The notes under the pieces were generated by a model that was not told the DNA's origin, did not search any database, and saw only the letters and a program-made list of their open reading frames with translations. A stretch of 41,055 nt of DNA from Eubacteriales bacterium. Lineage in GTDB: Bacteria > Bacillota > Clostridia > Lachnospirales > Lachnospiraceae. The translations under genes were made by a program, and so were the position numbers. Of the stretch, positions 8,970 to 14,800 are shown in pieces (position 1 is the stretch's first letter; the number at the start of each line of letters is the position of its first letter). The stretch spans positions 1-41,055 of the forward strand of contig JAUNGB010000044.1 of assembly GCA_030524715.1 (NCBI GenBank), written 5' to 3'.

Positions 8970-10352
8970 ATGACAGATTATTATAAGGTGTTAGGAGTAG
9001 AGCCGGGCGCGACTCCCCAACAGATAAAAAAGGCATACTTTTCGCTGGTTCGGACCTATTCTCCGGAAAAGGATCCGGAAAAATTCAGGGAGATCAGGGA
9101 AGCCTACGAAAATCTGCAGAAGCCGTCAGGAGAAACAGGTCCCAGCTTTCCGGAAATGACAGATCCCTATGCTGTTATGATGCTGAAGGCAATCGTGAAA
9201 AACAGCCGCGCGGGAAACAAAGCGATAGTAAGGAATATGTGTGAGGAAGCTCATAATAAGTTTCCTGATGAGATACAGTTTTTGTATCTTACGGCGATCG
9301 CTCAGCGCAAGGCCGGCAATACAGGGAAGGCTGTCAAAAGCTGCGAGCTTTTAGTTAAAAAAGAACCGGAAAACAAATGGTTCTGGAGAGAACTGGCCAT
9401 TTCTTATATTGAGCGCGGATTTAAGCAAAAGGCATTTTCAGCCTGTGAAAAAGCCTATGAACTGGGCTGCAGGGACAATGACTTTATTTTGATGTTTTCC
9501 ATCAACTGTAATGATTATGAGGAATATGATACCGGATGCAAAATTTTATTGGAACTGGTACGCCAAAACAGAAAATGGGACAGAAATGAGATTCCGGAGG
9601 TTCTCGAGGCTTACAGCGGCCTGCTGGTAATGGATCTGTTGGGAGGACTGGGGAATTTGAAGGAAATCCTGGAACTCCTGTGCGGTTTTGTAAAGAAATA
9701 TTCTATTTATATAGACGAAAATATGGAACTGCTGTCAACTATGATCGCCCTTCTGGCAATAAAAAGGCACTGCAGCCTGGATGAGATGAAGGAAATAGAT
9801 AAGCTGGTGGCGATAATGGAGCAGACGAGCCGTTCCCTGAAAAGCAGACAGTTATGTAAAGCATTAAAAGAAACCTGCCTGATTCAGTTTATGGAGAAAG
9901 ATGAACGTCTGTCAAACTTAATTTTCGACTTGGCGGACGCAGTATTTGGAATGTCCGGGATGGATTCGCAGTTAAAGAAATATGCTCTGCTGGATGCAAA
10001 GCTGTGCATGATCGCAGAGCGTCAGGAGATTTTGCCGCAGCTTGAAATCCTGAGGACGGATTATCCGTATTTTTATGATGCGGTCAGGGAGTTCGCTGAA
10101 CAGCTTCAGTCCGGCAAAAATCTTGAAAACCTGAAGACGTCTTTGTTAAAACAATATGTTCGCCTTTCCGAAAGTGTTGACGGCGGCTATTATTTTAAAA
10201 AGTATCCGGAAGAAAAAAAACGCTTCTATGGAAAGCTTATTTACGAAAGTACAGAGGATGTGCCGTATGTAAGGAGTGAGAAAAAGGTTGGCAGGAATGA
10301 TCCCTGTCCATGCGGAAGCGGAAAAAAATATAAGCACTGCTGCGGGCGGTAG
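8970..10352 (+). CDS. J-domain protein with TPR-like repeats and C-terminal SEC-C motif
   Basis: The 460-residue product starts with a J-domain (residues 3-50: [20 protein letters not shown], then [11 protein letters not shown]). The invariant HPD tripeptide that triggers Hsp70 ATPase activity is replaced by S31-P32-E33. Residues ~60-400 are helical with TPR-like repeats (for example the segments near 95-165). The protein ends with a SEC-C zinc motif, [18 protein letters not shown], as in the SecA tail. It follows the DnaK-like gene by 3 bases with a GGAGG site. It probably presents clients to, or scaffolds, the adjacent Hsp70. Whether it can still stimulate ATPase without HPD is open. Confidence 0.83.
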
Positions 10353-10407
10353 ATGCAGAGCAGCCGGAGATATATCAGATATGCAGAGATTTGGTTTGAA
10401 CGCTTTT

Positions 10408-10434
10408 GCCAGTGGGAGTTTAAGAGCCCACTGA
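10408..10434 (+). other. Perfect hairpin between convergent genes
   Basis: CAGTGGG (10410-10416) and CCCACTG (10427-10433) form a 7-bp perfect stem with a 10-base loop, 56 bases after the J-domain gene's stop. No U-tract follows on either strand, so a terminator role is uncertain. It directly precedes the first copy of a short dispersed repeat and may belong to it. Confidence 0.4.
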
Positions 10435-10448
10435 CATAAGCGCAGCGA

Positions 10449-10487
10449 CCTGCGTTCATGAGCATGCAGCAAAGCGGAATATGAATG
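10449..10487 (+). repeat. Short dispersed repeat, copy A
   Basis: CCTGCGTTCATGAGCATGCA (first 20 bases), followed by GCAAAGCGGAATATGAATG, recurs at 10522-10564 and 18486-18536 with a few substitutions. All three copies are on the plus strand and all lie in intergenic DNA just after a gene's 3' end. No coding function is evident. Confidence 0.6.
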
Positions 10488-10521
10488 AAGTGCAGGCCGC
10501 AGGTGCATGACAGGTACAATG

Positions 10522-10564
10522 GCGTTCATGAGCATGCAGCAGAGCGGAATGTGAATGTCTGCTT
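10522..10564 (+). repeat. Short dispersed repeat, copy B
   Basis: GCGTTCATGAGCATGCAGCA followed by GAGCGGAATGTGAATGTCTGCTT repeats copy A 73 bases later. It reaches the stop codon of the minus-strand deacetylase gene. Copies A and B form an imperfect direct repeat inside the 210-base space between the convergent genes. Confidence 0.6.
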
Positions 10565-11430
10565 TACGTTATGTCAGTTATCAGTTCCTGCAGTGTTTTA
10601 AACTGATATCCCATTTCCTCCCATTTGGTGAGCAGCTCATCCATGATCTCTCCGTTGGTGGAAGAGGTATTATGAAGGAGTACGACAGCTCCGGGGTGGA
10701 TGCGGCCAAGAAGCTTGTCGAAGGCTTCCTCATGGGACGGCTGTTTATCCTGATACCAGTCCACGTAAGCAAGGCTCCAGAAGAAAGTACTGTAGCCAAG
10801 CTCTTTAGCCATAGCCAGGTTGGCTGTGCTGTAGATTCCCTGTGGCGGGCGGTAAAATTTAGCCATAGGGGTTCCGGTGATTTCTTCATAAAGTGCTTCT
10901 ACACCCTGAAGTTCTTCAGCAAAGGCTTCTTTAGTGGAGATTTTGGACATATTTGGGTGGGTCAGCGTATGATTACCTACGGTATGCCCTTCAGCAACCA
11001 TTCTTTTTATTAAATCAGGATTGTCTTTTACGAAATTCCCTACAACAAAAAAAGTGGCGGATGCGTTGTGTTTTTTTAAAGCATCCAGAATGGCGGGAGT
11101 ATTTCCGTTTTCGTAGCCGGCGTCAAAGGTGAGATACAGAACCTTTTCGTCGGTATCTTCAGCATAATAGGCATTATATTCTTTCAGTTCCTCGATCGTT
11201 GCGTTGGCAACGGGCTTTTTGCCTTCTTCCTGAAAGCTGAGTCCCCAGTTGGAGGATTCGGCGGAGGTTTCTATAGTATCCTGATTGTTTTCACTGAGAA
11301 AGACGGACGCTTTACCTGCAAAGGCGCCGAGAAGAAAGGCGCCTGCAAGAATGGCAGGAAGCCTGAAAAAGTGAAGGTGGGATTGTGATAATCTGGATAT
11401 GTATTTCAGATTCCGTTTCATAAAATTCAT
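10564..11430 (-). CDS. PdaA-like peptidoglycan/polysaccharide deacetylase
   Basis: The 288-residue product has an N-terminal membrane anchor or signal (~residues 24-44: LPAILAGAFLLGAF) and a carbohydrate esterase 4 (NodB) domain from ~90. Motifs seen are LTFDAGYENGNT (catalytic Asp plus metal-binding Asp), NHTLTHP (metal-binding His pair) and YRPPQGIYS; HPGAVVLLHNTS is the fifth CE4 motif. The layout matches PdaA, which removes acetyl from N-acetylmuramic acid to prepare muramic delta-lactam in spore cortex. Other Lachnospiraceae deacetylases look similar, so the spore role is likely but unproved. It is transcribed toward the chaperone operon. GGGG sits ~7 bases before ATG 11430; a second in-frame ATG is at 11421. 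Confidence 0.85.
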   Translation of the reverse strand: MNFMKRNLKYISRLSQSHLHFFRLPAILAGAFLLGAFAGKASVFLSENNQDTIETSAESSNWGLSFQEEGKKPVANATIEELKEYNAYYAEDTDEKVLYLTFDAGYENGNTPAILDALKKHNASATFFVVGNFVKDNPDLIKRMVAEGHTVGNHTLTHPNMSKISTKEAFAEELQGVEALYEEITGTPMAKFYRPPQGIYSTANLAMAKELGYSTFFWSLAYVDWYQDKQPSHEEAFDKLLGRIHPGAVVLLHNTSSTNGEIMDELLTKWEEMGYQFKTLQELITDIT

Positions 11431-11559
11431 AAAAGCCCCGGCATATGATTTCTTTCTCTATACATATTGCGGCGGAATTGAAAATATGTGAAAAATATCT
11501 ATATAAAAATATCTGCAAAAAAAGGAGCACTGTGCCGGAATAGAAACTTTTAAAATGTG

Positions 11560-11602
11560 CAATTAAAAAGAGCCATCAGATTCTGTTTTTCTGGTGGCTC
11601 TT
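11560..11602 (-). terminator. Intrinsic terminator of the tandem-repeat RNA
   Basis: Read on the minus strand, AAGAGCCACCAG (11602-11591) pairs with CTGATGGCTCTT (11579-11568) with one G-U pair, closing an 11-base loop. It is followed by a run CTTTTTAATT. The plus strand has no U-tract after the same stem, so the terminator works for leftward transcription, that is, for the repeat array. Confidence 0.85.
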
Positions 11603-11617
11603 ATAAATGTTCATTGT

Positions 11618-12255
11618 CCAATGGTCGTTACCTTCCTTTCATTAAATTATAGGGTAAATCTTTAACGTTTCATTGGTCCTTACCGTCCTTATTCAGTTTA
11701 TTATTGAATGATTTGGGTTAAAGCCTTTAAGTTCCCATTGGTCCTTACCGTCCTTCTTCAATATTGATTATGAATGATTAGGGTGAAACCTTAACTGTTC
11801 ATTGGTCTATACCTTCCTTATTTAAAATTGATTATGAATGATTGGGATAAAACTTTAATTGTTCATTGGTCTATACCTTCCTTATCCATAATGACTATAA
11901 AAGATTAGGGATAAAACCTTAACTGTTCATCGGTCTGTACCTTCCTTATTCAGTTTTATAAGAAATAATTGGGGCAAAGCCTTAAGTTCTCATTGGTCCT
12001 TACCATCCTTTGTTGAATTTTGTAATGAATCATTTGAGATAAAACGTTAATATTTCATTGGACCGTACCTCTCTTGCTTTTTTATAAAACGTAATTGGGA
12101 TTTTTGATTATGTTCTTGGGGGTCTGTACCTCCGTTTCTTAAAGTATGATAACAGCTATCTGTTTAAAAATTTATGCTTCTGGTGGTCTGTACCTTCCTT
12201 TCTTAATTTATGAGGAATTACTTTATGTTTTCGGTGGTCTCACTCCTTTTCTTTA
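11618..12255 (-). repeat. Eleven tandem units, ~64-bp period
   Basis: The plus-strand anchor GGTC (GGAC in one unit) occurs at 11623, 11675, 11740, 11804, 11868, 11932, 11995, 12060, 12121, 12185 and 12236. The spacings are 52, 65, 64, 64, 64, 63, 65, 61, 64 and 51 bases. The intervening DNA is also related between units (for example the ATTGATTATGAATGATT block after units 3 and 4). This is a homologous tandem array, unlike a repeat-spacer array. The constant period despite base divergence suggests that unit length is maintained. Confidence 0.9.
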
Positions 12256-12285
12256 TTTTTTAAGTCCCTTTTGTTTTATGAACTT

Positions 12286-12314
12286 ACTATAACAGATAAT
12301 AATTGAAATGTCAA
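12286..12314 (-). promoter_or_regulatory. Consensus sigma-A promoter for the repeat RNA
   Basis: On the minus strand TTGACA (12314-12309) is followed by a 17-base spacer and TATAGT (12291-12286), one base from full consensus. The expected start is near 12279, ~40 bases before the first repeat unit. The DNA from 12300 to 12450 is otherwise very AT-rich and holds no gene. Confidence 0.85.
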
Positions 12315-12454
12315 GAATAAAATTGAAAAAATAAAAATAAATTTTATAATAACAATTAAAAACAAATAAAACATATGAATATTCTGAAAATATATCAATA
12401 TATCGAACGTGAGATAATTCCGGGATTGACATGGAAATCCGCTTATGATAAGGT

Positions 12455-12620
12455 CTAGAGTATGTTTAAAAATTCATTTCCGCAATCTGTACTCCCCACT
12501 TTGCGGTATATTTGCCCCGCATTCGGTCGCCGTAGCCCGCTACGCCTCCCTCATTTGTGGCAAATCTCCCACAAACTGGGAAGCACATCTTACGAAAAGC
12601 AATTTTCAAACACACTCTAG
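12455..12620 (+). mobile_element. MITE-like element, 166 bp, with ~26-bp terminal inverted repeats
   Basis: The left end is CTAGAGTATGTTTAAAAATT and the right end, reverse-complemented, is CTAGAGTGTGTTTGAAAATT; the similarity continues for ~6 more bases. The interior has no convincing gene. Matching solo ends occur at 578-597 and 27162-27190, so the family is present several times in this genome. There is no transposase here, so it is presumably mobilised in trans. A target-site duplication is not obvious. Confidence 0.72.
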
Positions 12621-12689
12621 CAAACGACAGTGTGAAGAACGGATTTATTTGGTAATAATCTTCAAAAAAACTTTGGCAGGGGGTAAGTG

Positions 12690-12971
12690 ATGAATATAAT
12701 GCCAATTTCGGAATTAATTGACAAAGTTGCATTAATTTGCAGGAAAAATGGTGTGAAGCGTTTGGATCTGTTCGGCTCTTTTGCCACAGGTACGGCTGTT
12801 CCGACCAGTGATATAGATTTTGTTGTGTATGGGTGCAAGGACATACTGCAATTAGAAGAGGAACTGGAGGAAATAGATACGCTTCGAAAAATAGATATTT
12901 TTGATTACGATAGTATTCATAATACATTTTTATTGGAGGACATAAAGAAATATGGAAAGCAAATCTATTAA
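12690..12971 (+). CDS. MntA-type minimal nucleotidyltransferase antitoxin
   Basis: The 93-residue product is a minimal nucleotidyltransferase (MNT). It contains G29-S30, ten residues, then D41-I-D43, the exact G-S-x10-D-x-D active-site signature of MntA. In characterised pairs MntA adds AMP units to a tyrosine of its HEPN partner HepT and so silences it. The gene overlaps the downstream HEPN gene by 20 bases, which supports co-translation. ATG 12690 follows AGGGGG by 6 bases; an in-frame GTG at 12687 is less likely. It sits just after a MITE, in line with a mobile or accessory origin. Confidence 0.85.
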   Translation: MNIMPISELIDKVALICRKNGVKRLDLFGSFATGTAVPTSDIDFVVYGCKDILQLEEELEEIDTLRKIDIFDYDSIHNTFLLEDIKKYGKQIY

Positions 12972-13353
12972 TCGTTACAATACGTTCTGCAAAAGTCTGA
13001 AAAATCTTGAAAAAAGCAGAAAGGCTGATCCAAAGGCAGATTTTGTATTGGAAGGGACGGTACTGAATTTTAATCTTACTTTTGATATTTCCTGGAAGGT
13101 AATGAAGGACATATTGATAAAGCAACTTGGGGTCCTTGATTTTGCTATTGGGTCGCCCAGGGAGACATTGCAGCAGGCTTTTACAAATGGGATTATTGAT
13201 GATGAACAGTGGATGAAGATGCTTCGTGTCAGGAATCAACTGGCCCACGACTATGACGGAACTTTTGCGGCGGAGAAATTCCAGGATATTATTAAGATAT
13301 ATTACCCGTTATTTGAGAAATTAAAGAATGCGGTTGAAAAGTATTACAGGTGA
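12952..13353 (+). CDS. HepT-type HEPN ribonuclease toxin (HI0074 family)
   Basis: The 133-residue all-helical protein belongs to the nucleotidyltransferase-substrate-binding/HEPN group. R94-x4-H99-x-Y101 (RNQLAHDY) is the R-x4-H-x-Y motif: Arg and His form the RNase site in HEPN dimers, and Tyr is the residue that MntA AMPylates. TFDISWKVMKD is typical of HI0074-like members. The start has a good TTGGAGG site inside the antitoxin gene. Together with 12690-12971 it forms a type VII-like toxin-antitoxin pair; activity is inferred from motifs. Confidence 0.83.
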   Translation: MESKSINRYNTFCKSLKNLEKSRKADPKADFVLEGTVLNFNLTFDISWKVMKDILIKQLGVLDFAIGSPRETLQQAFTNGIIDDEQWMKMLRVRNQLAHDYDGTFAAEKFQDIIKIYYPLFEKLKNAVEKYYR

Positions 13354-13474
13354 CGAAGAGATTCTTGGTTTATGAAGTGATCATCAATGAGGGATCAGTG
13401 AAGAAAATCAAATAGTATAAAAATCGTTTCTTTGGGAAATTCTATCTTCATAAAGCTTTTTAGGAGGTAGAAAT

Positions 13475-14800
13475 ATGCTGCGTTATCTTCCCATCAGAAA
13501 AGTTCACGCAAGACAAGTATTGGATTCCCGGGGCAATCCTACGGTAGAGGTAGAAGTGACCGTAGGAGAAGGCGTTGTGGGGATTAATGGATATACAGCA
13601 AGAGCGATGGTACCGTCAGGAGCATCCACCGGCAAATTCGAGGCAGTGGAGCTTCGGGACGGGGATAAAGGAAATTATGTAGGCTTAAGTGTACAGAAAG
13701 CAGTAAATAATGTAAATACAAAGCTTGCGGAAGCAATCCTTGGAGAAAATGCCTTGAATCAGTCACAGATCGATGCGATCCTTATTGAAACGGACGGCAC
13801 GGACAACAAAAGCAGTGTAGGGGCAAACGCCACATTGGGCGTTTCCATGGCGGTAGCCCGTGCGGCCGCCATGGCGCTCCGGATCCCGTTATATCAGTAT
13901 TTAGGAGGATGTCATACGACACGGATGCCTGTTCCTATGATGAATATTTTGAACGGAGGAAAGCATGCGGATAATACGGTGGATCTGCAGGAATTTATGA
14001 TCATGCCTGTGGGCGCCGGATGCCTGGCAGAGGGTATCCGCATGTGTGCGGAGATATATCAGTTCCTGAAAATCATACTGAAAGAAAAGAAACTGTCCAC
14101 CGCAGTCGGTGATGAAGGCGGATTTGCGCCGGACTTGGCTGAAGCCGGGGACGTGCTGAGCCTGATCATAGAAGCTGTTAAGCGTGCGGGATATGAGCCG
14201 GGCAGGGATATCGGCATTGCCATTGACGCGGCTGCCAGCGAGTTGTATGATGAAGAACTGGGAGTTTATTATTTCCCCGGGGAAAGCCAGATGAAGGGTG
14301 AAGAGATATTACGGGACTCTGCAGAAATGGTTTCCTACTATGAAAAGCTGATCGACGAGTTTCCAATCGTTTCTATTGAAGACGGACTTCAGGAGGACGA
14401 CTGGGAGGGCTGGAAAGTTCTGACGGAACGTCTGGGCAGCCGCGTACAGCTTGTGGGAGACGATTTGTTTGTCACAAATATCAAGAGACTTGCCTGCGGA
14501 ATCAAGCTTGGAGCGGCAAACGCGATCCTTGTAAAGGTTAACCAGATCGGAACCCTGAGCGAGGCCATGGACGCTGTGCAGATGGCGCAGCACGCCGGAT
14601 ACCGGGCTGTGATCTCCCATCGGTCGGGAGAGACAGAGGATGCGTTTATTGCAGACCTTGCCGTTGCTGCAGGAGCCGGACAGATTAAGACAGGCGCGCC
14701 CTGCCGTTCGGACAGAAACGCAAAATACAATCAGCTTCTTCGGATCCATGAGTATCTGGGAGAACTGACGGTTTATGAGAATCCGTTTGTCAAAGAATAG
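13475..14800 (+). CDS. eno: Enolase
   Basis: The 441-residue product is phosphopyruvate hydratase, the glycolytic enzyme interconverting 2-phosphoglycerate and phosphoenolpyruvate. It shows [17 protein letters not shown] at the start, [18 protein letters not shown], the metal and catalytic segment [17 protein letters not shown] (metal Glu-Asp), [11 protein letters not shown], and near the end [17 protein letters not shown] and [20 protein letters not shown]. Length is normal for the family. A strong TAGGAGGT site precedes ATG 13475. A -10-like TATAAA lies near 13418, but no clear -35 is visible. The order eno-secG-rnr-smpB is conserved in Firmicutes. Confidence 0.97.

Follow-up and report, generated by a model that had tools for sequence, protein, structure and literature searches.

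Our analysis suggests that a tandem repeat array in a Lachnospiraceae genome specifies a stand-alone, largely unfolded RNA built to load ribosomes. The array occupies positions 11560–12320 on the minus strand of a 41,055-nt contig of Eubacteriales bacterium (GCA_030524715.1, JAUNGB010000044.1; "the window" denotes this whole stretch), and consists of a promoter, eleven diverged tandem units (U1–U11) and an intrinsic terminator. Each unit resembles a translation initiation site in which a strong Shine-Dalgarno (SD) sequence is followed either by a two- or three-codon open reading frame (ORF) or by a codon that does not normally initiate. Such sites would hold or cycle 30S subunits or ribosomes and thereby tie up initiating ribosomes, a reading to which we assign a probability of about 0.5. 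The features that speak for it, all legible in the DNA, are the architecture of the array and its conservation, promoter and terminator signals, complementarity to 16S ribosomal RNA (rRNA), the mini-ORFs, a lower limit on unit spacing, and coding-like conservation of the last ORF.

The locus had first been described, from its sequence alone, as an expressed multi-site RNA with eleven units of 61–65-nt period, shortened to 51–52 nt at both ends. Our measurements agree: U1–U11 span 12250–11601, with start-to-start spacings of 51, 64, 61, 65, 63, 64, 64, 64, 65 and 52 nt, and the promoter and U-run hairpin named in that description are both present (Table 1). Tandem Repeats Finder reports a 64-nt unit (4.7 copies, 11650–11952, score 318) and a 128-nt period (11650–12070, score 371). 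Copies at the 64-nt period are 60–76% alike across 66–80 nt, spacers included, and the array is therefore not a CRISPR array, in which near-identical repeats alternate with unrelated spacers. A DNA search of the same genome found the array at one place, and Rfam 15 offered no family that explains it: at the gathering threshold the sole match in the window was a tRNA outside the array, and a permissive scan of 11450–12420 gave a best E of 3.6. The sequence motifs said to be kept in every unit are nearly so, as judged by eye: GGTA..ACC is seen in nine of eleven units, U1 (GGAGTGAGACC) and U4 (GGTACGGTCC) lacking it, and GGA in ten, U4 again lacking it. The statement that there is no long ORF is correct (none of at least 80 amino acids lies inside the array), but it passed over the short ones, since U4–U10 each read SD-ATG-NNN-NNN-TAA and U11 holds a frame of seven codons including the stop. 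Three things were thus overlooked: the per-unit mini-ORF, the non-start codon in the first units, and the terminal ORF with its conserved peptide. We regard the array as confirmed and beyond chance, and the original prediction, taken as an interpretation, as partly supported.

To describe the units across relatives, we detected them by the core upstream of the start position alone (RGGTANRNWCCR, at most two mismatches, purine-rich before the core), so that the start and stop codons are independent of detection. This yielded 352 distinct units. The array score was passed by 109 of 138 loci (numbered with the prefix L); exact duplicates were removed and kinship was ignored, and the passing set includes some false chains (e.g. 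L057) and repeated loci of one genome, while a few terminal units were tallied as middle units (L041, L069). Away from the terminator, the start position is occupied by CCA (108 units), ATG (93), CCG (40), AAG (18), ATC (11), ACA (9) or TTG (3), and never by GTG, giving 152 CCN units versus 96 with a start codon. Reading U1 as a GTG-start ORF was rejected because L033–L035 lack the GTG, which would also overlap the SD. Nearly all middle ATG units (86/93) stop almost at once: in 72 the stop falls at codon 3, and in the remaining 14 it falls at codon 2, where TAA, TAG and TGA are all used. Their second codon is often AAA (26), TAC (15), AGA (14) or GGA (10), and Thr is the third codon in 31 of the 93. 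In L120, TAA, TAG and TGA replace one another at the identical place in adjacent ATC units, so that being a stop seems to matter even behind a weak start codon.

The purine block upstream of the start position is well explained by the 3' tail of 16S rRNA (GGATCACCTCCTTTCT in a genome of the same genus). With this anti-SD tail, CCN units are predicted to pair at a mean of -13.4 kcal/mol (n=135), last units at -12.3 (n=40) and middle units with a start codon at -10.5 (n=93); the corresponding means are -11.0 for the best starts of 32 window ORFs and -5.6 for random 25-mers. A further mark of the units is a 16S complement interrupted by one extra base (AAGG-N-AGGT or AAG-N-GAGGT), found in 86/142 CCN, 41/94 middle start-codon, 19/40 last and 14/60 other units, as against 1/29 window ORFs; in most cases this base is an A, with C, G and T also occurring. 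Duplex predictions also showed extended pairing of GWCCA with UGGAU of the 16S, from which we make no claim; such pairing would invade helix 45.

Units keep a minimum distance from one another. Among 247 unit-to-unit spacings none falls at 30–44 nt, 8 at 45–49, 86 at 50–54 and 55 at 55–59, the mode being 50–55 nt; four spacings below 30 nt are probably overlapping detections. A 30S subunit protects about 54 nt of mRNA according to older footprinting, and the limit fits one ribosome per unit.

At the same time, the RNA does not appear to be selected to fold. Predicted folding is no stronger than in shuffles, either for whole arrays (mean z -0.13, n=79) or for units (z 0.21 and 0.02), so that both a structured-RNA reading and masking of the SD by downstream ACC or UCC were dropped. 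RNAalifold on 18 short forms recovered the terminator, an AT-rich pair between the leader and the stretch after U3, and 2–3-bp GGU/ACC hairpins inside the units, with almost no covariation energy. For the leader/U3 pair covariation is uninformative either way because the pair hardly varies; its GTTTTAT half occurs three more times in the array. The spacers (278 distinct) are enriched in ACCC, TACC, TTCC and CCCA (e.g. TAACGATTTACCCCA in several genera), forming no hairpins with the SD. Sponge RNAs of the CsrB/RsmZ type present many GGA sites in hairpins to the protein CsrA. The array shares with them the many GGA sites per RNA but not the hairpin loops, and a reading of the units as structured protein-binding sites is not supported.

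The last unit, next to the terminator hairpin, differs from the others. Its start position reads TTG or ATG in 42 of 46 distinct cases, and its stop tends to fall on the base of the terminator stem: under a strict automatic rule, an SD-led ORF with a stop at the stem base was found at 54 of 85 array terminators and at 2 of 80 control hairpins taken from sequence flanking these loci, and a looser SD rule (one pyrimidine allowed in the hexamer) gave 71/85 and 10/80. The 54 strict ORFs are mostly of five (35) or six (13) codons, with Asp as residue 2 in 45 (GAC 29, GAT 16) or Glu in 3, and Glu (29) or Ile (14) as residue 4, giving the pattern M-D-x-E/I-x. The peptide MDSIV is written in four DNA versions across four genomes, with differing start and stop codons, and MDNQVH, MDSEVH, MDTEH and MDNEQ in two versions each. 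This terminal, mostly acidic peptide of 5–6 residues thus looks like a case of conservation at the protein level. Frame 2 of the last units also meets a stop before the stem in 30 of 46, because ANTGAA is conserved. The E-peptides of macrolide resistance, pentapeptides that are encoded by functional mini-ORFs and act on the ribosome, are likewise tiny, but they are single ORFs with a consensus unlike M-D-x-E/I-x.

The expectation that homologous arrays would exist in relatives was borne out, which supports a conserved gene for a multi-site RNA that has a promoter and a terminator of its own. A DNA search found arrays in 37 of 64 genomes of the same genus, Blautia, including 26 of the 34 of good quality. 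Most well-covered Blautia copies share a common plan: strong promoter, leader CATAAAACAAAAGGRA, U1, U2, U3, none to seven middle units, the special last unit and the terminator. Deviants are L034 and L035, without U3, L033, with a long unit-free stretch, and L009, with one first unit fewer. Across all arrays scored, in whatever genus, between 2 and 11 units were detected. In L007 and L011 an A-rich insertion of about 130–200 nt lies between U3 and the middle units, and Roseburia arrays (L069, L071, L075, L085, L087) have about 200–300 nt of purine-rich sequence without recognised units between the first units and a terminal MDEIV or MDEII ORF. A sequence-only model of U1–U3 matched 130 of 396 Lachnospiraceae genomes (107 of 307 genera) at E<=1e-3, which is an upper figure because, of the 40 next-best family matches fetched, 21 passed and 19 failed a stricter two-unit test and several dozen weaker matches were uninspected. 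Roseburia inulinivorans, Anaerobutyricum hallii and Diplocloster are among the named carriers of the array. When 393 genomes sampled across the class were searched, the same threshold gave 15 matches, 12 within the family (window genome included) and 3 outside it, of which, by eye, L091 and L095 appear genuine, unlike L098. A looser pattern scan for spread beyond the family gave only chance-like matches among the six new places viewed. A mobile or phage origin was rejected, as no match was found in phages and plasmids (distant blastn) or viral contigs (exact patterns).

Further evidence indicates that the array is an independent gene. In 61 of 88 arrays, the 190 nt preceding the first unit detected contain a promoter with 11 or 12 of 12 consensus positions, where 0.9 would be expected from composition shuffles and none was seen in 94 control regions; in the 10000–14000 segment of the window at large, promoter-like sites are near shuffle level (13 versus 10.3). 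At the other end, the terminator stem is kept in the 18 short-form relatives with few outer or inner pairs broken, and at five of its pairs both partners have changed, each time in a single sequence. The hairpin in the window had escaped a general hairpin scan because that scan was limited to loops of 3–8. Its 3' arm (alignment A1, columns 301–310) reads CTGATGGCTC in most of these relatives, even opposite a freely varying, mismatched 5'-arm position, and may have a second role. Downstream, an ORF of at least 90 amino acids follows 31 of 35 arrays viewed, in 15 cases on the strand of the array and in 16 on the other, so the array is not the leader of one gene. These neighbours are ORFs judged by eye rather than by family search, and can be shared within a genus (Roseburia L071, L075, L085). 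A leader of the downstream polysaccharide deacetylase in particular was rejected, since the same-genus L016 and L017 differ downstream (by eye) and other genera have other ORFs, often antisense.

From these features we infer transcription of the array, ribosome binding, a sink function and a physiological purpose, along the following lines. In each unit the 16S 3' tail would find a long complement to its anti-SD, often with a one-base bulge, and either an AUG opening a two- or three-codon minigene or a normally non-initiating codon (mostly CCR; also AAG, AUC, ACA) at start distance. Ribosomes or 30S subunits could then line up along the RNA, each on its own unit and about 50–64 nt from the next, those on non-start units being held and those on AUG units cycling through initiation and immediate termination. 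The RNA would in this way tie up a share of initiating ribosomes, and the bound ribosomes would shield it from decay, while the last minigene would seat a terminating ribosome on the base of the terminator and may protect the 3' end. Of the three roles originally proposed (protein sponge, ribosome or anti-SD decoy, multi-target small RNA), the decoy fits the evidence best. As to where the benefit lies, we favour, at roughly even odds, an effect in trans, as a sink for initiating ribosomes, over one in cis on RNA stability and peptide output.

Several observations weigh against this reading. Sequestering ribosomes would require the RNA to be abundant. No array was matched in 27 of the 64 Blautia genomes, including 8 of the 34 good-quality ones (at most eight candidates scored per genome). 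The duplexes of ATG units are not stronger than those of ordinary ORFs. Eight of 79 arrays do fold with z below -2, and the openness predicted for the SD octamer lies slightly below that of the array on average (0.43 versus 0.55), which is mild evidence against easy ribosome access. Moreover, CCN units keep the codon-3 stop too (116/152), although a pure 30S trap needs none, and in Blautia RRAACNTAA after the start position is common to both unit types; the stop in CCN units could therefore belong to an RNA-level motif.

Such a motif is the core of one alternative, in which a protein binds the units or they pair with mRNAs, making the array a multi-site regulatory RNA whose likeness to SDs and mini-ORFs is a by-product. 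The roughly 24-nt motif including GGUACRGWCCA...RRAACNUAA is indeed kept with and without a start codon, but in ATG units the stops are exchanged among TAA, TAG and TGA and shift in frame, and a protein-binding motif would predict neither a variable extra base within an otherwise exact 16S complement nor synonymous changes in the last ORF. We consider this the least probable of the explanations weighed here. An unlikely but somewhat better candidate is a cis-acting delivery RNA, in which tandem non-start SDs form repeated 30S roadblocks against RNase J on an exceptionally stable mRNA made solely to yield the terminal peptide in large amounts. Its precedent is the STAB-SD of Bacillus thuringiensis cry3A, an SD without a start codon that binds 30S and blocks RNase J1 (PMC4113751). 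SDs of the U1–U3 type share with it complementarity to the 16S 3' end without initiation, and the strength of that pairing (the CCN mean given above), the amino-acid-level conservation of the terminal ORF and its stop on the terminator in 71/85 arrays (looser rule) all suit the idea. On the other hand, STAB-SD is a single element in the 5' untranslated region of the protein gene it stabilises, while here there are up to 11 sites, many of them AUG minigenes (93 ATG units) that a pure roadblock does not need, in an RNA with its own terminator and an opposite-strand downstream ORF in 16 of 31 cases; the detected unit number varies widely, and the peptide is tiny and differs between genera. The non-start units may thus function like STAB-SDs without belonging to them by context.

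Slightly less probable than delivery in cis, if not as improbable as the bound motif, is a minigene toxin or brake, with repeated initiation on very short ORFs leading to peptidyl-tRNA drop-off and depletion of free tRNA, and the acidic peptide perhaps destabilising the ribosome. Strong SD, AUG, one or two codons, UAA and a frequent Thr third codon match the features of toxic minigenes (PMC8708949; for CreT, which provides a precedent, PMC8501985, PMC10097628), where short mini-ORFs have efficient initiation signals and usually a strong SD; the CreT stem-loop may also be compared with the hairpin of the array. This pattern is present in the 86 of 93 middle ATG units noted above and absent from non-start units, which are the majority (152 CCN versus 96 start-codon units). 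Those toxins are also single mini-ORFs, whereas the array lines up many units whose codons vary, includes units that lack a start codon and closes with a conserved peptide. Archaeal CreTs use a rare-codon pair and are guarded by the CRISPR-associated creA (PMC8501985, PMC10097628), while the array has no evident fixed codon pair. Its sense codons differ between genera (TAC, TTC, GCT, AAA, AGA), which makes a single tRNA target unlikely. Neither an antitoxin partner nor a cas family was found among the window ORFs scanned (for cas, 10 of 100 listed, with Pfam; relatives were not searched for either). N-termini rich in Asp and Glu destabilise ribosomes (PMC9718836), making this a possible role of the terminal peptide, but the runs described there are far longer.

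Table 1. Parts of the array in the window, in order of the minus strand
Feature	Position	Strand	Details
Promoter	12286..12314	-	TTGACA-17-TATAGT, TG before -10; 11/12 consensus matches
Leader	12265..12280	-	conserved CATAAAACAAAAGGGA; ATAAAAC (12273-12279) can pair with GTTTTAT (12084-12090) after U3
U1	12223..12250	-	SD-like purines, CCG at start-codon position, TAA three codons on
U2	12172..12201	-	AAAGG(A)AGGT bulged 16S complement, CCA at start position, TAA
U3	12108..12137	-	SD, CCA at start position, TAA; conserved GTTTTATAA after unit
U4	12047..12075	-	SD, ATG AAA TAT TAA
U5	11982..12011	-	SD, ATG AGA ACT TAA
U6	11919..11947	-	SD, ATG AAC AGT TAA
U7	11855..11883	-	SD, ATG AAC AAT TAA
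U8	11791..11819	-	SD, ATG AAC AGT TAA
U9	11727..11755	-	SD, ATG GGA ACT TAA
U10	11662..11690	-	SD, ATG AAA CGT TAA
U11 (last)	11601..11639	-	SD, mini-ORF TTG GAC AAT GAA CAT TTA TAA (MDNEHL); stop overlaps terminator base
Intrinsic terminator	11568..11602	-	hairpin AAGAGCCACCAG...CTGATGGCTCTT, then T-run

The surroundings of the array hold two further features. An element with palindromic ends lies at 12455–12621 (CTAGAGTATGTTTAAAAATT ... AATTTTCAAACACACTCTAG), and the minus-strand ORF that runs across it (12466–13248) matches Pfam DUF6783 at its C-terminal end; given this position of the match, DUF6783 may be a translated repeat element rather than a protein family. Two small plus-strand genes adjoining the array (12687–13353) match PADLOC PDC-S09 and PF08780 (nucleotidyltransferase substrate-binding), respectively, a pair that resembles a toxin-antitoxin system of the MNT/HEPN type.

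We found no description of such an array in the openly licensed papers searched, and the design matches no described RNA family that we came across. With some reserve, we propose that it could belong to a new class of RNA, polysome-like but not a message, that evolved in Lachnospiraceae to retain or cycle ribosomes at tandem dead-start or 2–3-codon sites. It would thereby set the pool of free 30S subunits, with the terminal pentapeptide minigene as an integral part. If ribosomes are indeed loaded on it, common human gut bacteria (Blautia, Roseburia, Anaerobutyricum) would possess a natural RNA dedicated to competing for ribosomes, which would offer a direct handle on how the supply of free ribosomes is tuned in such bacteria, and the conserved terminal ORF of five or six residues would be a very short one to study. 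If only the STAB-SD interpretation holds, the array would still be an unusually elaborate natural device for stabilising RNA.
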